Origin: Synechococcus sp. HK05
Lineage (GTDB): Bacteria > Cyanobacteriota > Cyanobacteriia > PCC-6307 > Cyanobiaceae
Length of the DNA: 64,000 bases
Assembly: GCF_019104765.1 (NCBI RefSeq)
Contig: NZ_JAHRXJ010000001.1
Location: 62,001-126,000, forward strand
Direction: 5' to 3'
Position numbers and translations under genes: made by a program. The notes beneath the pieces are model-generated. The model saw only the letters and a program-made list of their open reading frames with translations. It did no database searches and was not told the DNA's origin. This document shows, one piece after another, positions 7,969-17,682 of the stretch; positions within the stretch are counted from its first letter, which is position 1, and every line of letters starts with the position of its first letter.

Positions 7969-8451
<483 letters not shown>

Positions 8452-8478
8452 TCGTTTCAGTGGTCTTGCGATTCAGCT

Positions 8479-8500
8479 GCCCCCGTCAGGGGGCTTTTTT
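8479..8500 (+). terminator. rho-independent terminator of PSRP-3 gene
   Basis: A perfect 6-bp GC stem, GCCCCC (8479-8484) and GGGGGC (8489-8494), encloses a GTCA tetraloop and is followed by six T (8495-8500). It lies 28 bp after the PSRP-3 stop and separates it from the convergent operon that ends at 8533. Confidence 0.9.
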
Positions 8501-8532
8501 ATTGGCTGGCCCTTGGGCGCGTGGCTTTGGCG

Positions 8533-9549
8533 TTACTGCCGGCCGCGGGTCACCTGGCCGAAGCTGCTGCCGGTGATCAGGGCCGGCTCGGTGGCCGTTT
8601 CCACCGTGAACTGGCGTGATTCGCTCTGGCTGGTGCCATCTGGGTATACGAAGGTCACCAGCCCCTCCAGGGTGATCAAGCTGCCGTCGCGGCTGAGCTC
8701 GCGCAGGTGGTCCACGCTCACGCGTTGAAACTGGCGGAAGAAGGCCGGATCGAATTGATCGGCGGCTTCACCGCTGAAGCGTTGGCGCGCGGCCTGGATG
8801 TTCCCCAGCGAGAGGTCGTTGTAGAGCTGCTCCACGCTGGTGATCGCCTGCGCTGCGGCGGCATCGTTGCTGGCCTGCTGGCTGAGATCCGGCGCCGGTG
8901 GTGCCTCGGCAGTTGTTGTGTCAGGGCTGGGGGTGGTGAGTTCGCCGGGTAGCTGCGGCCGCGGGTTATTCGCCGTGTTGGTGCTGGGAAGGGTGGTTTG
9001 CAGCAGCAGCCAGGCGAGGCCTCCACCCACACCCACCACCAGCACGCCGGCCATGAAGCTCAGCACGGCTACCAGCCCATTGCTGCCGCCACGGCCCGCG
9101 GCAGGTTCCAGATCCTGCTCGTAGGCGTTGTTGTCGTCCTCTGCGATCTCCTCCCCTAGAGGCGGCTCGTCCTGAACGGACATGGGAGCTGTTGGGCTGG
9201 GCGAGGGAGATGCCGGCTGCGCTGCTGCGTAGGCCTCCGGCAGACCCAGCAGCCCGCGCAGCACCGCATCCATGCGGGTGCAGATGGGGGCGGCGAACAC
9301 CTCGTTGAGTTCCTGCTGCAGCCGCAGCTGCAGGCGTGCATCGGCGGGCAGGGGTGGTTGCTGGCTGGCGGCGCTGCTGAATCCCGGCGCAAGCACCAGG
9401 TATTTCAGAGCTGGCAGCAGGGCGAGTTGGCTCTGGCCGCAGAAATCGCCCACCAGGGCCTGAAGCCGGCGTCCATCAAGGGGCAGGCCCCGCTCCAGAT
9501 CGCTGAGGATCTGGCGGCGCAGATTGGCTCCGAGCGCGTAATCGTTCAC
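8533..9549 (-). CDS. single-pass membrane protein with C-terminal NTF2-like/IMS-type domain
   Basis: Last gene of the kinase-phosphatase operon. It begins at GTG 9549, which overlaps the PP2C stop as GTGA, giving 338 residues starting NDYALGANLRRQILSDLERG. The N-terminal 110 residues are a helical cytoplasmic region. An acidic, Pro/Ser-rich linker leads to one membrane span (LVAVLSFMAGVLVVGVGGGLAW, about residues 157-178). A Thr/Pro-rich stretch then precedes a C-terminal domain of about 100 residues (VEQLYNDLSLGNIQAARQRF ... LEGLVTFVYPDG) that looks like the NTF2-like/IMS (DUF4101) domain ending several cyanobacterial and ARC6-like membrane proteins. Position and topology suggest a membrane sensor, scaffold or phosphorylation target of the operon; that is inference. 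Confidence 0.75.
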   Translation of the reverse strand: MNDYALGANLRRQILSDLERGLPLDGRRLQALVGDFCGQSQLALLPALKYLVLAPGFSSAASQQPPLPADARLQLRLQQELNEVFAAPICTRMDAVLRGLLGLPEAYAAAQPASPSPSPTAPMSVQDEPPLGEEIAEDDNNAYEQDLEPAAGRGGSNGLVAVLSFMAGVLVVGVGGGLAWLLLQTTLPSTNTANNPRPQLPGELTTPSPDTTTAEAPPAPDLSQQASNDAAAAQAITSVEQLYNDLSLGNIQAARQRFSGEAADQFDPAFFRQFQRVSVDHLRELSRDGSLITLEGLVTFVYPDGTSQSESRQFTVETATEPALITGSSFGQVTRGRQ

Positions 9550-10769
9550 GGTTTCGTTGGTGCTGCGGCAGGCGCTGCAGCTGCAGGCATCTTGCCCTTT
9601 GCCGGCACGGCCGTGGCGCGGGCCCGCTCCCATTGGCGGCTTAGCTCAGCGTTCAGAGCGGCGCAGCCGGGGATGGGGCCGCTCTGGCTGGCAGCGATCA
9701 AGGCGCCGAGCGGATCGCGGCTGGTGGGTTGTTGCAGCTGGCTGGCCAGCTGGGGTTGTTCGAGTAGAGCGTTGAACTGCGCCCGGCGTTGGTTGAGGTT
9801 GCTGGGGATCTGCTCGGGGTTGGCACAGAGTTGGCGTGCCTGGGCCTGCAGGGGTGTTTCCTGCCGCACCATCCGCCACGCCCCGAGGCCAACACCGGCC
9901 GCCGCCAGCACTAAGAGGAGCAAGGGCCACAACCCCGGCGGCGGCGTGCTGCCGCCGCTTCGCCTTCGCTTCGGCCTTGCAGCCCGCTGGGCGATGGCGA
10001 GCGACACGTCGTCGCCGCTGCCAGCCTCGGTGATGTGGGCGAGCCCCTGCTCCAGCTCCTGGCGATCGCGTACATCCAGTAGGGCGGCGCAGAGCTGCAG
10101 ATAGTCGGCATCGGTGGCGCAGGATTTGCGCACGCCATCGGTGCTGAGCACCAGAGCCTGCAGATCGGTATGTGACTCCAGCGGATGCAGCTGGGTGCGC
10201 TCGCCCCAAAGCTGCTGCTCGAAGGTCTGGCAGAGGCTGCCGGTGGCTTCGCTGCCGCTGTGCTCGCGCTCCTCGCTGAGCAGCGTCGCTTGGCCCTGTT
10301 GATCGATGGCGCTCAGATCCCAGTCGCCGATGCCGGTGCAGCCCCACCACTGCGGCGCCAGCAGCACCAGCCCCAGGGTGCTGCCATAAAGCAGGGGCGA
10401 GAAGGCTTCATGCTCGGCGTCTGGCTGTAGCGCCCAGTCAGCAGCGATCGCTGCCAGCCAGCGCTGATGTATCGCGGCGGGCAGCTCCTGCTCCAGCACT
10501 TGCCGCCAGCGCTCCAGGTCCGTCAGGGGTGTGCCGCTTAGCCACTGCGCCACCGCTTCCTGGCTCACCTGGCAGGCCAGGGCACTGCCCCGGTGGCTGA
10601 GCCGGTAGCGACTGCCGCCGTGGCCATCGGCCACCACCAGCAGCTGCAGGCTGCCGCCGCGGCCCTTGAGTTCCACGCTCAGGCTGGCGTCCTGGCAGGG
10701 TTTTTGCTGGCGGCGATGGGCAGCGCCAATCACGCTGCAGGCCTGCAGGTGCTGCCAGCGCGGGCTCAC
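9546..10769 (-). CDS. membrane-anchored PP2C-family protein phosphatase
   Basis: This metal-dependent Ser/Thr phosphatase starts at GTG 10769, overlapping the vWA gene stop as GTGA; 407 residues. PP2C motifs appear in order: KPCQDAS (about residues 23-29), LLVVADGHGG (43-52, metal-binding Asp), GSTLGLVLL, TGIGDWDLSAI, LSTDGV and GSGDDVSLAIA (late metal-binding Asp). After the catalytic domain comes a basic patch (RPKRRRSGG) and one membrane span (LWPLLLLVLAAAGVGLGAW), then a helical tail ending in an Ala/Pro-rich segment. It presumably reverses phosphorylation by the kinase three genes into the operon. The membrane anchor places the catalytic domain in the cytoplasm, given the basic residues before the span. 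Confidence 0.9.
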   Translation of the reverse strand: MSPRWQHLQACSVIGAAHRRQQKPCQDASLSVELKGRGGSLQLLVVADGHGGSRYRLSHRGSALACQVSQEAVAQWLSGTPLTDLERWRQVLEQELPAAIHQRWLAAIAADWALQPDAEHEAFSPLLYGSTLGLVLLAPQWWGCTGIGDWDLSAIDQQGQATLLSEEREHSGSEATGSLCQTFEQQLWGERTQLHPLESHTDLQALVLSTDGVRKSCATDADYLQLCAALLDVRDRQELEQGLAHITEAGSGDDVSLAIAQRAARPKRRRSGGSTPPPGLWPLLLLVLAAAGVGLGAWRMVRQETPLQAQARQLCANPEQIPSNLNQRRAQFNALLEQPQLASQLQQPTSRDPLGALIAASQSGPIPGCAALNAELSRQWERARATAVPAKGKMPAAAAPAAAPTKP

Positions 10770-11512
10770 CACACCAGGGGGCCCACGTCGTCGCTGGGAT
10801 CCAGCAGCGTGGGGGGCAGATCCGGCAGGGGGATGTTGGCCGGGCTGTTGGCTGCTGTGCCCGCATCGGCTGCAGCCACGCGACTGGCGGGCATCGAGGC
10901 GGCCCCAACCACGGCGGTGGAGGCCCATTGGATGTACTGGGCCAGGGTGGTGGCGTTGCTCGCCTGCAGCGGCCGCCGCGGCGATTTGCCGCGTCCCGAG
11001 GGCTCCGGACCAATGAACTGCTGCAGCACCTCCAGATCAGCGTCATGGCCCATGGCAATCGCCAGGCGCACCGCTTTCTGGGCCCAAGGCCGCCGCATCA
11101 GGTTGGCCAGCCCCGCATCGAAATCATCGGTGGGCTGGCCGTCGGAGATCAGCACCAGCACCGGCGGCAGTGCCCGCTCTTCCATCGGCGGTGACTGCAG
11201 CGCATCGGCCACCAGATTGAGGGCATCGCCCATCGCTGTGATGCCGCCGGCCTCCAGATCGCGCCACTGCAGCTGCTGCACGGGGGTGGGTTCCGCCAGG
11301 TGCCAGGCCGCCTGATCGGCAAAACGCACGGCCCGTACCAGCACCCGCGCTTCAGGGTTCTCGCGGGCCACCTCGGCCATGCCCGGCAAGGATTGGCGGA
11401 TGGCCTGGTTGAGGGCCTGCATCTTGCCCTGGGCGGCCATTGAGCCGCTGCAATCGCAGAGGTAGATGAAGTGCAGCGGCCGGTTGCTGAGCCGAACGTT
11501 GGGGAAGGGCAT
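10766..11512 (-). CDS. von Willebrand factor A domain protein (TerY-like)
   Basis: A 248-residue vWA protein. The metal-ion-dependent adhesion site is intact: DCSGSM (DxSxS, residues 20-25), a threonine in AGGITAMGDAL, and an aspartate in LVLISDGQPTDD. The domain covers about residues 10-180; a Pro/Ala-rich tail ends in DDVGPLVW. No signal peptide is present, so it acts in the cytoplasm, as TerY-type proteins do. It lies 3 bp after the kinase gene and overlaps the PP2C gene start. The vWA, PP2C and zinc-ribbon kinase set is the TerY-P triad described for bacterial stress-response loci. What the vWA protein binds here is unknown. Confidence 0.88.
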   Translation of the reverse strand: MPFPNVRLSNRPLHFIYLCDCSGSMAAQGKMQALNQAIRQSLPGMAEVARENPEARVLVRAVRFADQAAWHLAEPTPVQQLQWRDLEAGGITAMGDALNLVADALQSPPMEERALPPVLVLISDGQPTDDFDAGLANLMRRPWAQKAVRLAIAMGHDADLEVLQQFIGPEPSGRGKSPRRPLQASNATTLAQYIQWASTAVVGAASMPASRVAAADAGTAANSPANIPLPDLPPTLLDPSDDVGPLVW

Positions 11513-11515
11513 GGC

Positions 11516-12850
11516 TTAGGGGCGTTGCACCAGGATCGCTCCGGCGCTGCTGTTGAGCTGCTGCAGGGCGGCGAGATTACAGGTTTTGCCGGGGTCAAGC
11601 TCGATGCTTTGCCCCGTGGTGGTGCGTCCACTCCAGCGGCTGGTGCTCAGGTTCTGCAGGCCCAGCACGGTGGGGTCGCTGGGGTGGGCCACCAGCCGGG
11701 CCAGGGGTTCGCGGATCGATTCGCCCACTAAGGGATCGAAGTGATGTGGTTGCAGTTCGTTGCCGGCTGCGGCGGACACCAGGCCATGGGGCAGCTGCAG
11801 GCGCAGCGGCGCTGAAAGAGGGGTGCCGCAACCCCAGCAGCTACACGGTGCCTCCGGCGCGGGGAACGTTTCCTGGCCGCAGTGGCTGCAGAGCTGGCGC
11901 TGATCGAGGCATTGGCTGATCGCCTGCTTCCACTGGCCCGTGAGGGTGCGCTCCTCGCTCTGGCGCAGGCCCGCTCCGAAGCTCTGCACAAACAGACGCT
12001 GCAGGCTGGCGGGATAGATGGGCCAGGTGATCAGAGCGGCACTGTGCTCGATCGGATCCGGCCGGTTGCTTGGGTCGTTGGGGTCAAAGATGAACAAGGC
12101 CTCATCGCCATAGAGGCGGCGGCGGGCGGGCTCATCCAGGCAGCGGATCGCCAGTTCCCGCTGGCCCCGGAAGGGGTCGTGGCGGGTGAGCAGGCGGAAC
12201 AGCAGCACCGCCAGAGAAAACAGATCGCTCCGGGCACTCGGCTTGGCCTGGCCCAGCAGCACTTCCGGCGCCATGAATCCAGGCGTCCCGAGCACGCTGC
12301 TGCTGCTCTGGCCATCCACATCCACGTTGTCGTTGTCGCAGATGAGGATCCCGCCGCTGCTGGGCTCGAGGAACAGATTGCCCAGGGAAACGTCCTTGTA
12401 ACAAAGGCCCTTGAGGTGCAGTTGGTGGAAGGCCTCCGCCAGGTGGAAACAGGCCTTGAGCACCCCCTGAAGGCTGATGGCCAGATCACCGCCGGCGTGG
12501 CGATGGGCACCAACAAACGCCTCCGGGCGAAGGCCCATCAGGTAGCCGAAGCCGCCGGCGGCTGCGGGGAAGCGCTCCAGGCTGGCGGGGATGGGATCCA
12601 GCAGCGCCAGGGGCCAGAGGAAATCACGGTTGGGGGCGCCGAGCCGGATGCTCTGCTGCAGCCGCTCCCGCAGCTGTGGATCCCGGGCGATGCAGGCCGG
12701 GAAGTACCACTTCAGAGCCAGGCGCTCTCCGCAGAGCTGCACGGCGAACACCTGGCCTTGGCTGCCTCCCCCCAGCCCCCGCTCAATCAGCAGCGGCTGC
12801 TCCAAGCCGGCAAAGGGCAGGCTGGCGCCTTCGGGCAGCAACCAGTTCAT
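11516..12850 (-). CDS. atypical Ser/Thr protein kinase with zinc-ribbon (TerY-P triad type)
   Basis: A 444-residue kinase starting at ATG 12850, which overlaps the FHA gene stop as ATGA. Kinase features: glycine loop GLGGGSQGQVF (25-35), ATP lysine K47 in LALKWYF, a catalytic loop CYKDVSLGNLF (150-160) with YKD replacing HRD, D153 and N158 present, a CDNDNV metal site (171-176) replacing DFG, and MAPEVL (193-198). After the kinase fold comes a zinc-ribbon with C321, C324, C336, C338 and C341, then a beta-rich C-terminal domain that may be FHA-like. These variant loops and the zinc-ribbon match kinases of TerY-P triads rather than PknB/Hanks kinases with extracellular PASTA domains. No membrane span is seen. 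Confidence 0.9.
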   Translation of the reverse strand: MNWLLPEGASLPFAGLEQPLLIERGLGGGSQGQVFAVQLCGERLALKWYFPACIARDPQLRERLQQSIRLGAPNRDFLWPLALLDPIPASLERFPAAAGGFGYLMGLRPEAFVGAHRHAGGDLAISLQGVLKACFHLAEAFHQLHLKGLCYKDVSLGNLFLEPSSGGILICDNDNVDVDGQSSSSVLGTPGFMAPEVLLGQAKPSARSDLFSLAVLLFRLLTRHDPFRGQRELAIRCLDEPARRRLYGDEALFIFDPNDPSNRPDPIEHSAALITWPIYPASLQRLFVQSFGAGLRQSEERTLTGQWKQAISQCLDQRQLCSHCGQETFPAPEAPCSCWGCGTPLSAPLRLQLPHGLVSAAAGNELQPHHFDPLVGESIREPLARLVAHPSDPTVLGLQNLSTSRWSGRTTTGQSIELDPGKTCNLAALQQLNSSAGAILVQRP

Positions 12851-13539
12851 GCGGAGGTTGGGGCCTGGCCGATGGCCTGGCGGATGCCGTTGCGGTGGGC
12901 CAGAGCCGTGCGGCGATTGGCGAAACCATGGCGTATGGCACGCCCATCGCGCAGCACCAGCACCAACGCATGTTGTTTGCGCGAACCCATCAGGATCCAG
13001 CCTGCTAGCGCCCCAGCCTCCAGCGGCCAGAACACCAACGGAAATGGCAGCAGCAGCAGGCCACCCAGGCAGAGCAGCAGCCACCAACTGAAGATGTGAG
13101 GGTGCAGCGGCAGGCTCTGCACAGCTGCCGAACGGATGTCGGCGACGGCCACCTGCTGCTCGCCAACGCTGATGTGGCGGGGGGCTGCGGCCGCCACCGG
13201 AGCTGGGGCAGCTGCCGCCTTTACTGCTGCGGCTGATTCGAACACCAGCACCGGGCCATTGCGGCCGAGCCGGATTTCATCGCCGTGTTCCAGGCGCTTG
13301 CATTGATGCACCTGGCGGCCTTCCAGAAAGGTGCCGTCATCGCTCTGCCAGTTGCACACCAGCCAGCCCTGGCTGCGGGAGAAGCGCACCACGGCATGGT
13401 GCTCAGACACCCCCTCCTGATTGGTCAGGCAGAGGCTGTTGCTGGCCGCGCGCCCGATGGTGAGCGGATTGGCGGGATCCAGCGGTGCCACCTTGCGGCG
13501 ATCCGCCGCCAGTACCAGCCGCGCAGCAGGGGTGCTCAT
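12847..13539 (-). CDS. FHA domain protein with C-terminal membrane segments
   Basis: This 230-residue protein starts at ATG 13539, overlapping the stop of the small membrane protein gene as ATGA. The N-terminal phosphothreonine-binding FHA domain spans about residues 5-105: LTIGRAASNSL (Gly-Arg), GVSEHHAVV (Ser-x-x-His) and DDGTFLEG, where Asp-Gly replaces the usual Asn-Gly. A linker of Ala/Pro repeats leads to a hydrophobic hairpin (FSWWLLLCLGGLLLLPFPLV and a second span, LEAGALAGWILMG) and a basic tail. It can thus hold a phospho-reader at the membrane. It lies immediately before the kinase gene and is its most plausible partner. Confidence 0.85.
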   Translation of the reverse strand: MSTPAARLVLAADRRKVAPLDPANPLTIGRAASNSLCLTNQEGVSEHHAVVRFSRSQGWLVCNWQSDDGTFLEGRQVHQCKRLEHGDEIRLGRNGPVLVFESAAAVKAAAAPAPVAAAAPRHISVGEQQVAVADIRSAAVQSLPLHPHIFSWWLLLCLGGLLLLPFPLVFWPLEAGALAGWILMGSRKQHALVLVLRDGRAIRHGFANRRTALAHRNGIRQAIGQAPTSA

Positions 13540-13874
13540 GGTTGCTGGCGCCGGCGGCGCCACCACAGCTGCCAGTCGTCGCGCAGGTCGTTCCACCAGC
13601 CGCCGTCGCCCTCGCGGTAGGGCACCACCCTTCCCGGAAACAGCAGGGCCTTGCTGGCCAGGGCCAGGGCGATCAACACCAGCACCAGCAGCACCCAGCC
13701 GGGGATCGCCCCCACCCAGGTGGCGGCGAAGAAGGCGCGAATCGCGTACAGCCCGATCGTGAACGCCAGCCACAGCCGGAAGGGTTCCCAGGGGTCCCGT
13801 TGGCGCTGCAACGATCCGCTTGAAGGCTGGCCGTAGCCTATGGCCGGGCTGCAACACCCGCCTGGCCACCGCAT
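13536..13874 (-). CDS. small membrane protein, first gene of the kinase-phosphatase operon
   Basis: An 112-residue protein with two hydrophobic segments (WLAFTIGLYAIRAFFAATW and AIPGWVLLVLVLIALALASKAL) and a strongly charged, Trp-rich C-terminus (WWNDLRDDWQLWWRRRRQQ). I recognise no family. It overlaps the FHA gene by 4 bp. Its ATG at 13874 may overlap the divergent FHA-PBP start, depending on which start that gene uses, so both promoters must lie inside the partner's coding region or start further in. Being first in the operon, it is probably part of the same membrane-linked signalling set. Confidence 0.65.
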   Translation of the reverse strand: MRWPGGCCSPAIGYGQPSSGSLQRQRDPWEPFRLWLAFTIGLYAIRAFFAATWVGAIPGWVLLVLVLIALALASKALLFPGRVVPYREGDGGWWNDLRDDWQLWWRRRRQQP

Positions 13875-16141
13875 CGCATCTGGCTTCGTTGAAAGAGCGC
13901 CTGGCGCCCGTGCCGGTGCGGCGTGCCTGGCTTGAACTGGCGCGGGCCGCTTGTGTGGGGCCGTGGCGAGAGCGCCCGGCGGCGATCGCCAGGGTGTGGC
14001 CGTTGTTGCTCGCCCATCAGGCCCGGGTGGAGCTCTGGGCTGGTGGCCGCCAGCTGAGCGAGCTGGTGCTTGAAAACAAGCGCTATCGCTTGGGACGCGA
14101 TCCTGCCTGTGAGCTCCCCTTGGCGGAGCCGGGGCTCAGCCGGGTGCACGCCATCCTCGAGAAGCAGCGCCCGAGCGATCGCGAGTTCGCCCTCGAGGAT
14201 TTCAACTCCGCCAATGGGCTGTTCCACCGGGATCGCCGCATCCGCTGGATTCAGCTGCGCGATGGTGATGCCGTGCGCTTGGGCTCACCGCTCAAGGGTG
14301 AGGCGCCGGAACTGCGCTACCACCACCCACGCAGCCCGCTCGAGCAGGCCGTGCTGCTGCTGGGAGTCGCGGCCTTGGCTGGCTCCACCCTGCTGGTGAG
14401 CGGCATGCTCGTGGCCGCCAGCATTGGCGGCGGCTCCAAGATCCGCTCCATCTCCGGGCCGGTGAAGATCTTCTCGGCCGATGGCCGCCAGATCGATGCC
14501 CGGGAGGGATCGTCCACCGCCTTGCCGTCGTTGCAGTCGTACCCGCTGCATCTGCGCCAGGCGTTGATGGCCTCCGAAGAGGCGCGCTTCGGCTGGAACA
14601 GCGGCATCGATCTGTTCGGCACCCTGCGCTCGGCCCTGCTCGGCACCGGTGGCGGCAGCGGGCTCACCCAGCAGGTGGCTCGCATGGTCTATCCCGAGGT
14701 GGGCCGCGATGTGAGCCTCACCCGCAAGCTCAGGGAGCTGTGGGTGGCGCTGCAGCTGGAGGTGGGCTTCAGCAAGAACCGCATCCTCAAGCTCTATCTC
14801 GATCGCGCCTATCTGGGCCTGGGCACCGAAGGTTTCGAGCAGGCCTCCCAGCTCTATTTCCGCAAGTCGGCCAGCGAGCTCGATGTGGGCCAGGCGGCTT
14901 TCCTGGTGGGCCTGCTGCCTAGCCCGAATGGCTACAGCCCCTGCAATCTCGAGGATCCCGGAGCGGGGCTGGAGCGGCGCAACCTTGTGCTCAAGCTGAT
15001 GCACGAGCAGGGCTGGCTCAGCGATCAGGCCTTGATCGATGCCCAGCGCCGCCCGCTCAACATCGATCCCTCGGCCTGCCGCGAATCCACCTTCAGCAGT
15101 TATCCCTTCTTCAGCGACTACGTGCTGGGGGAACTGGAAGGCACACGCTTTGGCCTCGACCTGAGCAGCGCTGATGCGGCCGGCAATTACGCCGTGATCA
15201 GCACGATCAATCCCAAGCTGCAGCAGCTGGCACAGGATCAGCTCAAGCGTTTTCTGGAGGGGCCGGCCGCGGCGGCAGGGCTCAGCCAGGGGGCCCTGAT
15301 CACGGTGAACACCGCCACCGGCGACATCCTGGCCTATGTGGGTGGTGGCGACTACGGCCGCTCCAGCTTTGATCGCGTGCAGGCGCTGCGCCAGCCCGGC
15401 TCCACGTTCAAGCTGTTTCCCTTCCTGGCGGCCCTCGCGGCCGGGGTGAAGCCGGCTGATGCGGTGTCGTGTGCGCCGCTGGCCTATGTGGCGGGCTGCC
15501 GCAGCGGCGGCGGCAGCACCAGCGTGGCGGAGGGGTTTGCCCGCTCCGAAAACGTGGTGGCCCTGCGCCTGGCGGAGCGTGCCGGGCTGGGCAATGTGTT
15601 GAAGCTGGCTCGCCGCCTCGGCATTTCCACCCCGCTCGATGCGGACTACAACACGATGCTGGGCGGCCGCGAAACCTATCTCTACGAGCTGGCACGCGCC
15701 TATGCCGTGGTGGCCAATGGCGGCCGCTCGGTGCCGATGCATGGCGTGAGCCGCATCTACGACCTCGGCATCTGCGGTTCGATCAAAAGCCTGGAGCAAT
15801 GTCCGCAGCGGGGCATCACCGTGCCGATCGGTGAGCAGACCCATCAGCTGCTCTCGCCGGAGCTTGCCGCCACGATGGATGAGCTGCTGGCTGGGGTGGT
15901 GCAGGGCGGTACCGGCCGGGCGGCGGGGCTGGTGCCTGATGCGCGCGGCAAAACGGGCACCACCAACAACGGCGTGGATGTGTTGTTTGTGGGGTACTCG
16001 CCGGCCAGCCAGCTGCTCACTGCCATCTGGATGGGCAACGACGACAACACCCCGGCCCAGGCCGCCAGTGGAGCGTTGGTGGCGGAGTTGTGGGGCCGCT
16101 ATATGCAGCAGGCGGTTACAGCAGTTCCCGGATCCGGGTGA
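13820..16141 (+). CDS. FHA-fused class A penicillin-binding protein (transglycosylase/transpeptidase)
   Basis: A bifunctional peptidoglycan synthase of up to 773 residues. Numbering from TTG 13820: a cytoplasmic FHA domain at about 70-155 (YRLGRDPACELP with Gly92-Arg93, LSRVHAIL with Ser107 and His110, Asn132-Gly133); one membrane span at 175-201; a GT51 glycosyltransferase at about 235-395 with catalytic Glu in SEEARFGWNSGID; and a transpeptidase domain with S528TFK531, S576EN578 and K711TG713. All catalytic residues are present. The start is uncertain: TTG 13820, TTG 13889 or a nearby GTG; the later ones avoid overlap with the divergent operon. It is divergent from the kinase operon, so its FHA domain is a candidate reader of that kinase's output. 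Confidence 0.93.
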   Translation: MKAGRSLWPGCNTRLATASHLASLKERLAPVPVRRAWLELARAACVGPWRERPAAIARVWPLLLAHQARVELWAGGRQLSELVLENKRYRLGRDPACELPLAEPGLSRVHAILEKQRPSDREFALEDFNSANGLFHRDRRIRWIQLRDGDAVRLGSPLKGEAPELRYHHPRSPLEQAVLLLGVAALAGSTLLVSGMLVAASIGGGSKIRSISGPVKIFSADGRQIDAREGSSTALPSLQSYPLHLRQALMASEEARFGWNSGIDLFGTLRSALLGTGGGSGLTQQVARMVYPEVGRDVSLTRKLRELWVALQLEVGFSKNRILKLYLDRAYLGLGTEGFEQASQLYFRKSASELDVGQAAFLVGLLPSPNGYSPCNLEDPGAGLERRNLVLKLMHEQGWLSDQALIDAQRRPLNIDPSACRESTFSSYPFFSDYVLGELEGTRFGLDLSSADAAGNYAVISTINPKLQQLAQDQLKRFLEGPAAAAGLSQGALITVNTATGDILAYVGGGDYGRSSFDRVQALRQPGSTFKLFPFLAALAAGVKPADAVSCAPLAYVAGCRSGGGSTSVAEGFARSENVVALRLAERAGLGNVLKLARRLGISTPLDADYNTMLGGRETYLYELARAYAVVANGGRSVPMHGVSRIYDLGICGSIKSLEQCPQRGITVPIGEQTHQLLSPELAATMDELLAGVVQGGTGRAAGLVPDARGKTGTTNNGVDVLFVGYSPASQLLTAIWMGNDDNTPAQAASGALVAELWGRYMQQAVTAVPGSG

Positions 16142-17189
16142 TCACGGCCCAGCTGAGCCCCAGCAGCAAACCCCAGCCCCAGCTGCTACTCAGCACCCGC
16201 TGCAGAGCCGTGCTGCGCTCATCGGGGTTCTGGCGCGGCAGCTGCCAACCCAGCTGCAGGGCTCCGTACACCAGCAGCAACACCCAGGCGGGGATCTCGA
16301 GGCCGGCGCTGCTGAAGCGGAACACGCGCCAGTGCAGCAGGCTCAGGCCAGCCGCCAAGGCAATCAGGGCACTGATGGCGCCGGAAGCCCCACTCCAGCG
16401 GCGTGTGATCTGCCAGCGTGCGGCGCACAGGGCGGCCAGCCCCAGGCAGGCCAGGGCCGTGAGGCAGTAGCGGAGCACCACCGACCCCAGCTGCAACGGC
16501 GAAGCCCCCAACAGGATCAGCAGCAGGATCAGGTTGAGGATCGCTTCGAGGTCATTGGCATGAATCCAGGCCTGGCTCAGCCATTGCCAGGCCTGCCGCG
16601 GCTGCGCGGCCTCGGCGCTGGGCAGCGGCCAGTGCCGCTTCAGCTGTTTGAGCGGTCCAAGGCTGAGTGCCTGCAGGAGAGCGAGCACGAGCACGAGCAC
16701 CACCCCGCCGCTCCAGCCCCAGCCCTCGAAGAGGGCCCGATCCAGTTCAGCGCCAACCCAGGCGAACACCAGCGCGCCTGCGGCGGCGAGAGCCAGGCCC
16801 GGGCCGAAGCGCTCCAGCTGCAGCCGCAGGCGGATGGGCGTTGGTAGAGCCGCGGCAGGGGGATCGGCGGCGCTTCGATCAGGCGGCGGCAGTTGACCGG
16901 TGGCGCCCTCCAGCAGATCGAGCAGCTCCTGCAGTACGGCTGGTGCATAGGTGGCCCGCAGCTGAGCGCTGAGGCTGGCCAGGGCCGATTGCTGCTCGGC
17001 GCCTTGGCTGTGGAGCACCTGCAGCAGCAGCGGTTGGCTGGCGAGATCGCGGATGGGACCTCGCAGACCATCGTTCGCCCCCAGGGCATCCATCAGCCGG
17101 TTGGTGAGCGCCCGCGATTGCCGCAGGCCGGCGGGATCCGCGGCCAGCCACCGGTTCAGCTGCATGCCCAGGTCGTGGCCAACACCCAT
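16116..17189 (-). CDS. rhomboid-like multi-pass membrane protein
   Basis: About 357 residues starting at ATG 17189 (ATG 17165 also possible; the frame continues into the atpC terminator upstream). The first 115 residues are soluble and helical. Then come about seven hydrophobic segments. A rhomboid-like pattern is visible: HANDLEAILNLILLLILLG resembles the TM2 HxxxxHxxxN region with Glu at the second His and Asn kept, and RWSGASGAISALIALAAG resembles the TM4 GxSG serine site. I find no histidine in the last hydrophobic segments where the catalytic His should be, so it may be an inactive rhomboid relative. It overlaps the 3' end of the FHA-PBP gene by 26 bp, tail to tail. Confidence 0.6.
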   Translation of the reverse strand: MGVGHDLGMQLNRWLAADPAGLRQSRALTNRLMDALGANDGLRGPIRDLASQPLLLQVLHSQGAEQQSALASLSAQLRATYAPAVLQELLDLLEGATGQLPPPDRSAADPPAAALPTPIRLRLQLERFGPGLALAAAGALVFAWVGAELDRALFEGWGWSGGVVLVLVLALLQALSLGPLKQLKRHWPLPSAEAAQPRQAWQWLSQAWIHANDLEAILNLILLLILLGASPLQLGSVVLRYCLTALACLGLAALCAARWQITRRWSGASGAISALIALAAGLSLLHWRVFRFSSAGLEIPAWVLLLVYGALQLGWQLPRQNPDERSTALQRVLSSSWGWGLLLGLSWAVITRIRELL

Positions 17190-17212
17190 GCGCGCAATTC
17201 GCAGGCAACAAC

Positions 17213-17237
17213 AAAAAAGCGCCCCGGAGGGGGCGCT
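17213..17237 (-). terminator. rho-independent terminator of atpDC
   Basis: Read on the minus strand, AGCGCCCC (17230-17237 complement) pairs with GGGGCGCT (17218-17225 complement) around a 4-base loop, followed by a T tract (complement of the A run 17213-17218). It lies 25 bp past the atpC stop, closing the atpD-atpC operon before the rhomboid-like gene. Confidence 0.9.
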
Positions 17238-17261
17238 GTCGATCATGAAGCGTGGGCTGGA

Positions 17262-17666
17262 TCAGGCCTTGCTGGCTTGCACGCGGGCGCGGGCACGCGC
17301 CAGTTCCTGCTGGGCCTTGATCTTGTCGGTGCTGGTGGGCTGGCCTTCGAACTTGGCCACAGCGGCGGTGGCGGCATCCAGCTCCTTGCTGGCGGCTTCA
17401 GCGTTGATGCTGCTGCCGAGCTCGGCAGCATTCACCAACACCGTCACTTCGTCGGCATCCACTTCGGCAAAACCACCCTGGAGGGCGATGGCCTTCCAGC
17501 CATTGCCTTCACGCACCCGCAGCACACCGAAATCGAGGGCGGTGAGGAGGGAGACGTGGCCGGGGAGAATGCCGAGCTGACCGGTGGTACTGGGCAGGAT
17601 CACTTCGTCGGCGTTGCCGTCGAAGACGCTCTGGTCGGGTGCCAGAACGCGGAGGGTGAGAGACAT
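17262..17666 (-). CDS. atpC: ATP synthase epsilon subunit
   Basis: The 134-residue epsilon subunit belongs to the F1 central stalk and restrains ATP hydrolysis. It starts MSLTLRVLAPDQSVFDG and has the beta-sandwich signature EVILPSTTGQLGILPGHVSLLTALDFGVLRV, followed by a helical C-terminus ending in QELARARARVQAS. Length is typical for cyanobacteria. It follows atpD by 16 bp and shares its transcript; the other F1/Fo subunits are elsewhere, as is usual in cyanobacteria. Confidence 0.97.
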   Translation of the reverse strand: MSLTLRVLAPDQSVFDGNADEVILPSTTGQLGILPGHVSLLTALDFGVLRVREGNGWKAIALQGGFAEVDADEVTVLVNAAELGSSINAEAASKELDAATAAVAKFEGQPTSTDKIKAQQELARARARVQASKA

Positions 17667-17682
17667 CAGTTAAGACTCCGGA

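Follow-up and report, generated by a model that had tools for sequence, protein, structure and literature searches.

The window analysed here is a stretch of 64,000 nucleotides from Synechococcus sp. HK05 (contig NZ_JAHRXJ010000001.1, positions 62,001 to 126,000), in which a compact group of genes encodes a protein kinase, a von Willebrand factor A (vWA) protein and a PP2C phosphatase of TerY-P type beside a divergent class A penicillin-binding protein (PBP) that carries an FHA domain of its own. A preliminary description, made from the DNA alone, had presented the six minus-strand genes at 8533-13874 as an operon built around a TerY-P triad. Their coordinates and junctions are real, with 4-bp overlaps at 13536-13539, 12847-12850, 10766-10769 and 9546-9549 and a 3-bp gap between the kinase and vWA genes (11513-11515). 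A Pfam scan agreed with the identities proposed there for the FHA (E=2e-14), kinase (Pkinase, 2.4e-15), vWA (VWA, 5e-6) and phosphatase (PP2C_2, 3e-29) proteins, and returned no match for the last protein, P0006, and none above cut-off for the small membrane protein P0001, which we call MEM. The six genes do form a block, but the unit does not end at 13874. It runs on across a divergent start region to the gene of the FHA-carrying PBP, P0007, and in the lineage of the window it also includes the gene of a rhomboid-fold membrane protein, P0008. Two of the start codons need care: among 31 sequences MEM is conserved only from residue 26, so its gene may truly begin at a codon other than the ATG at 13874, and P0007 probably begins further inside than 13820, the first start codon listed. 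A promoter scan of 8400-14000 revealed no sigma-70-like site, and the only strong terminator-like site in this interval lies at 8479-8494 on the plus strand.

The kinase and the PBP are found together well beyond this genome. Across an order-level sample of 200 genomes the kinase was present in 44 and missing from 156. The small FHA protein P0002 accompanied it in 43 of the 44, and in the same 43 genomes a PBP at least 56% identical to P0007 was encoded on the contig of the kinase, separated from it by 955-1550 bp in every case (43/43). No PBP of the P0007 type was seen among the matches listed for the 156 kinase-free genomes; the best matches listed there were paralogues of about 40-46% identity, many of which start early enough to include an FHA domain. 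In a second sample of 79 named kinase loci, 32 picocyanobacterial and 47 others, the PBP, MEM and small FHA protein accompany the kinase in 30 of the 32 picocyanobacterial loci, and MEM and the small FHA protein occur in none of the other 47. The cultured Synechococcus sp. WH 5701 (L029) is one of the carriers. A weak match at locus L049 (8e-9, more than 7 kb away) and a match at L020 to an FHA-ABC protein (2e-6) were not counted as PBP.

Several relatives separate the block from its surroundings. At loci L022-L026 the order PBP-MEM-FHA-kinase-vWA-PP2C is kept, and the other neighbours present in the window were not found there. In genome G022 (L106) the PSRP-3 gene adjoins the gene corresponding to 17265-17669 and the whole of 8452-17264 is missing as one block; in G126 (L105) the block is likewise missing, with approximately 1 kb between the same two genes. 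Genomes G018 and G143 carry the block at other sites. Kinase and PBP trees, both obtained by quick searches, agree in placing G018 with L004 inside the clade of the window and G143 with L022 (Shimodaira-Hasegawa-like approximate likelihood ratio test 94/97, 100/100). G018 and the window come from different genera, and for this copy the likely explanation is that the block was transferred as a whole. The kinase, PP2C, vWA protein, two small membrane proteins and class A FHA-PBP are thus one block kept together at different sites, in keeping with the earlier expectation that the genes stay together in relatives, and their conservation as a block in those relatives makes the association more than chance. 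Gene content, linkage, presence or absence as a block and the conservation of residues are what we observe directly, and the coordinates of the features are collected in Table 1.

Table 1. Coordinates of the genes and features of the block within the window
Feature	Position	Strand	Remark
MEM (P0001), small membrane protein	13536..13874	-	true start uncertain; hydrophobic stretch 47-84
P0002, FHA domain and hydrophobic region	12847..13539	-	FHA site partly degenerate
P0003, TerY-P-type protein kinase, C-terminal zinc ribbon and all-beta domain	11516..12850	-	
Kinase zinc ribbon	11828..11890	-	Cys 321, 324, 338, 341; Cys invariant
Kinase C-terminal all-beta domain	11519..11818	-	residues 345-444
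P0004, TerY-like vWA protein	10766..11512	-	complete metal-ion-dependent adhesion site (MIDAS)
vWA C-terminal tail, conserved	10769..10837	-	invariant PPT, Asp at +3 mostly, terminal Trp
P0005, PP2C phosphatase	9546..10769	-	one hydrophobic segment (277-298), C-terminal extension, GTG start
P0006, helical N-terminal domain, NTF2-like C-terminal domain	8533..9549	-	one hydrophobic segment, GTG start
P0007, divergent class A PBP with N-terminal FHA	13820..16141	+	
FHA domain of P0007	14084..14284	+	intact phospho-Thr-binding residues
P0008, rhomboid-fold membrane protein	16116..17246	-	
Stretch missing as one block in relative G022	8452..17264		empty site

Residue counts were taken from alignments of 31 kinases, 31 PBPs, 31 small FHA proteins, 29 vWA proteins, 29 PP2Cs and 25 rhomboid-fold proteins, in which L020 and L021 were not included. 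Within P0007 the FHA domain precedes the hydrophobic segment and would therefore face the cytoplasm. The Arg, the Ser-Arg-His group and the Asn-Gly motif of this FHA domain are all kept in 31/31 PBPs, the transglycosylase motifs are likewise present in 31/31, with Glu/Asp variation at one site, and the transpeptidase motifs occur in all 30 sequences that reach that far. The small FHA protein P0002 presents a different picture: the Arg is kept in 26 of 31 sequences (Lys or Ser in five), the Ser in 23 (Ala in eight), and the Asn of the Asn-Gly motif in only three, being replaced in 28. A search of the whole genome gave three FHA domains, on P0007, on a PBP paralogue and on P0002. The preliminary description had assigned the phospho-reader role to P0002 and left the PBP unconnected; with its site degenerate in most sequences P0002 is a doubtful reader of phospho-Thr, and judged by its residues the intact reader of the block is the divergent PBP. 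Beyond residue 151 P0002 finds matches only within its own family (292 genomes of the phylum). The paralogue, a second FHA-PBP 45% identical, is encoded elsewhere in the same genome (G000:C4:20031-22091).

The relationship of the kinase, vWA and PP2C proteins to the TerY-P triad was examined with family profiles built without the test sequences, with E-values calculated for a nominal library of 5000. The kinase profile recognised the kinase of a ter plasmid with E=3.5e-42 over profile positions 10-367 of 426, the vWA profile recognised the ter-plasmid vWA proteins (E 3.9e-24 to 7e-16) and the PP2C profile the ter-plasmid phosphatase (1.8e-7). The Escherichia coli K-12 counterparts YegI (1.1e-12), YegL (3e-9) and PphC (3.4e-15) were also matched. 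In contrast, the two other kinases of the genome were not recognised by the kinase profile (0.18 and not below 1), nor was ChlD by the vWA profile (0.16); no unrelated PP2C was among the controls. In the available text of PMC11090510 the definition of TerY-P includes a C-terminal zinc ribbon of the kinase, which the protein of the window has. Given this selective recognition and the zinc ribbon, we accept the core as a TerY-P-type triad in composition and ancestry, as had been proposed. The PADLOC TerY model applied directly to the vWA protein gave a weak match (E=0.0017). Both vWA and PP2C are present in 67 of the 79 kinase loci; some of the other 12 are cut contigs, but L036 (21 kb) has neither. 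The absence of ter genes noted previously extends to TerD in the whole genome, where a search that was positive in 2 of 14 control genomes found none; other ter families were not searched genome-wide.

The catalytic Lys and Asp and the metal-binding Asp of the kinase are intact in 31/31, the four Cys of its zinc ribbon are invariant in 31/31 and again in a 43-sequence alignment, the MIDAS (DxSxS..T..D) of the vWA protein is complete in 29/29 and the four metal-binding Asp of PP2C are kept in 29/29. No hydrophobic segment is present in the kinase sequence. Its predicted structure is confident nearly throughout the kinase domain, zinc-ribbon region and all-beta domain (mean predicted local distance difference test score, pLDDT, 93.2), and the 50 matches listed by Foldseek for the whole model were all kinases or kinase complexes.

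The vWA protein has the largest invariant share of any block protein (145 of 248 positions), and this includes its C-terminal tail. Beyond a variable linker the tail carries PPT in 29/29 sequences, which 25 of them follow with Asp at +3, whereas four show a gap at that position; pThr-x-x-Asp is an FHA-type motif. Counted over loci L001-L079, L103, L104 and L107-L109, 76 of 80 complete vWA open reading frames (ORFs) beside this kinase family end in Trp, in many phyla and often behind a Pro/Ser-rich linker (35/35 picocyanobacterial ORFs, 34 of them distinct, and 41/45 others). A terminal Trp was found in 138 of 5310 other open frames, in 0 of 90 kinase ORFs and in 2 of 73 PP2C ORFs. It is missing from three ter-plasmid vWA proteins, from YegL and from a Prevotella plasmid vWA, which ends in WG and whose kinase partner carries the beta domain nonetheless. 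This C-terminal beta domain of the kinase recurs on PrsW-type proteases at L054, L055, L066 and L070, beside other triads, and on membrane vWA proteins near further triads at L034 and L039. It gave no sequence match in the PDB and no recurring family in Pfam, where nine families each matched one of 35 members. Its strand pattern is FHA-like, but profile comparison with FHA domains gave a probability of 20%, and the PDB and Pfam lent no support, so that an FHA assignment would be doubtful. An OB-fold, the feature of the kinase C-terminus in a TerY-P-like defence module, is another conceivable identity for this all-beta domain. The PrsW-family intramembrane proteases with the kinase-like beta domain are encoded at L070:8173-9960, L066:1828-3429, L054:594-2213 and L055:12252-13862; a PrsW partner was also considered as a general rule and dropped, since only some triads have one adjoining. 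A PLW-like C-terminus was noted as a possible tag of cluster proteins in general and is not claimed, as outside the vWA proteins only four ORFs of at least 150 residues fit; the stricter PLW pattern occurs there in two ORFs of L020, one of L103 and one of L069, among the 5310 background ORFs.

The extra membrane parts described beside the triad are present. An AlphaFold2 model of P0006 (mean pLDDT 76, predicted template modelling score 0.38) is confident over residues 231-338, with values of at least 91 per 10-residue block, and Foldseek matched it to NTF2-named proteins and CaMKII association domains with probability 1.00 and E-values of 0.002-0.03, in agreement with the NTF2-like end suggested earlier. 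Only one match, to another protein (2jq5), reached 0.001. PBP5 of Enterococcus was also among the fold matches, through what we take to be its NTF2-like domain. P0006 does not belong to the conserved core, since no match to it was found at L103, L104 or L022-L026. The rhomboid-fold gene was likewise not found beside the L103 and L104 copies, and we therefore regard both genes as additions of the lineage. P0008 has GASG at its serine motif in the window and in 14 of 25 sequences in all, and GAAG, in which the catalytic Ser is replaced by Ala, in 11; no invariant His was seen in the alignment, and P0008 is possibly a pseudoprotease. Direct profile comparison of the helical N-terminal domains of P0006 and P0008 gave 8%, while both match the same proteins at L103 (94.6% each) and L020 (91.6% and 77.4%), so that membership of one family can be accepted only through these intermediates. 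Protease-like and small proteins also surround the triad of Prochlorococcus MIT 0701 (L020) and stand beside the G018 block (L103), some of which share the N-terminal helical domain or end in PLW.

Taken together, we propose that a TerY-P-type triad is wired to peptidoglycan synthesis, with a kinase lacking PASTA domains and a PP2C switching an FHA-PBP, and we would put the probability of this reading at roughly 0.55. The kinase would phosphorylate a threonine on a protein of the block; the leading candidate is the one in the invariant PPT(xxD) motif of the vWA tail. The cytoplasmic FHA domain of the bifunctional class A PBP would bind the phospho-Thr, so that the synthase is recruited, switched or gated, and PP2C would reverse the phosphorylation. 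The NTF2-like outer domain, the small FHA protein and the rhomboid-fold protein may keep the complex at the membrane and supply it with a signal from the envelope. From the sequences we infer the substrate, the signal, the orientation in the membrane and the direction of control, which may be activation or inhibition; the relay of the preliminary description, in the sense of phosphotransfer, is likewise conjectural. A narrower proposal, which we put forward tentatively and consider somewhat improbable, would give bacteria a further way to put peptidoglycan synthesis under Ser/Thr phosphorylation. In it the vWA protein of a TerY-P triad, once phosphorylated on its tail Thr, would dock onto the FHA domain of a class A PBP. 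More generally, the tail with its terminal Trp would serve as a common plug that fits the beta domain, which in such clusters of many phyla is found on the kinase as well as on membrane proteases and membrane vWA proteins. On this proposal the tail and the kinase beta domain would bind each other.

A number of observations weigh against the link to peptidoglycan synthesis. The proposal as a whole is drawn from sequence and from few independent relocations: most relatives share the entire region, unrelated flanks included, which reduces the number of independent events and makes synteny alone weak evidence, and the kinase and PBP trees disagree on L030, L109 and L009/L012. The pairing is not obligatory, as the two picocyanobacterial loci outside the 30 are Prochlorococcus triads with neither PBP nor small FHA protein, which shows that the triad has other uses; the 44th kinase-bearing genome (G005) also has neither protein. 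FHA-PBP paralogues occur in many genomes that do not have this kinase, and the matches of three operon-type PBPs out of the 43 (G010, G030 and G149) contain in-frame TGA codons. The tail has no Asp at +3 in L023-L026 and L108, and PP2C is shorter in L103 (266 residues) and L020 (295 residues), so its membrane segment is not universal.

Shared descent of this kind is what would be expected if the triad and the PBP were neighbours by inheritance only, with separate roles, and the Prochlorococcus triads agree with such passive linkage. We nevertheless judge it very unlikely, since in G018 and G143 the genes have remained neighbours at a different location, in L022-L026 they have done so among other flanks, and the PBP lies next to the kinase in 43/43. 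It is also conceivable, though unlikely, that the block is a usual TerY-P anti-phage or stress module, a switch that senses damage or metal, with the PBP as a mere neighbour or as an effector that closes the envelope. The available parts of PMC11090510 and PMC4978471 describe TerY-P triads in company with systems for tellurite resistance and restriction and with CoCoNuTs, and TerY-P-like modules that serve in defence on their own; the distribution of the block is patchy, and PADLOC kinase models match residues 125-234 of the kinase (PD-T4-6, best 1.8e-16; mad6, 5.6e-15). However, these matches span the generic kinase core only, the eight block proteins gave no Pfam match to a nuclease, helicase, McrBC or TerD family, the genome has no TerD, and the PBP, as the constant partner, has its active sites intact.

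A switch in membrane quality control or proteolysis, in which the vWA protein and beta domain deal with client peptides that a protease-like partner in the membrane acts upon, the PBP being one client, would account for the PrsW-type proteases that bear the kinase's beta domain beside other triads and for the rhomboid-fold protein within this block; vWA domains are also called peptide binders in the accessible portion of PMC7159879. The rhomboid-fold protein, however, is without its catalytic Ser in 11 of the 25 sequences, no copy of it was found next to L103 and L104, and we regard this explanation as quite unlikely. The control of the FHA-PBP by the triad remains our preferred reading. The parts seen of PMC4978471 and PMC11090510 present TerY-P triads as switches for stress or defence, with roles that are hypothesised. 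In this block the order of the genes points by itself to a candidate target, a cell-wall synthase carrying a phospho-Thr reader. The six to eight genes of the block constitute a defined set that supplies the writer and the eraser together with candidates for the acceptor and the reader, and the vWA tail motif offers a feature that can be tested across phyla.

We found no description of a TerY-P triad with an FHA-PBP among the literature matches listed, nor in the portions available of PMC4978471, PMC2877116, PMC1262709, PMC7880944, PMC11090510, PMC11898655 and PMC7159879. With the TerY-P triads of ter plasmids, CoCoNuTs and the Helicobacter pylori island the block shares the zinc-ribbon kinase, the TerY-like vWA protein with its MIDAS and the adjacent PP2C; unlike them it has no TerD or nuclease context, adds the FHA-PBP and membrane proteins, and its vWA protein has no TerY_C domain. 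In E. coli K-12 the three homologous components likewise lie in one region, yegI-pphC(yegK)-yegL, but the match of YegI is limited to positions 14-309 of the 426-position profile, and no PBP or FHA gene is annotated in the 22 kb examined there. The Mycobacteriales operon pknA/pknB-phosphatase-fhaA/fhaB-pbpA-rodA unites kinase, phosphatase, FHA proteins and PBP in one locus, according to the part of PMC11898655 at hand. The block resembles it in encoding an FHA reader and a PBP beside kinase and phosphatase, a likeness in working rather than a sign of membership: unlike PknB, the kinase here has no PASTA domain in Pfam (PknB_PASTA reaches 31 of the 450 bits needed) and no membrane span of its own, the PBP is of class A and carries the FHA domain itself, and vWA and rhomboid-fold parts are added. 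The actinobacterial GAP1-N2 GTPase systems, described in the accessible text of PMC7159879, comprise a kinase with zinc ribbon and beta-rich domain, PP2C, vWA, membrane and NTF2 parts. As this variant near the membrane was already described, an envelope role is less surprising and its novelty lower. The same kinase architecture accompanies PP2C and vWA in both, whereas the eight proteins of our block have no GTPase, GAP1 or FNIII match in Pfam and the block encodes an FHA-PBP instead.

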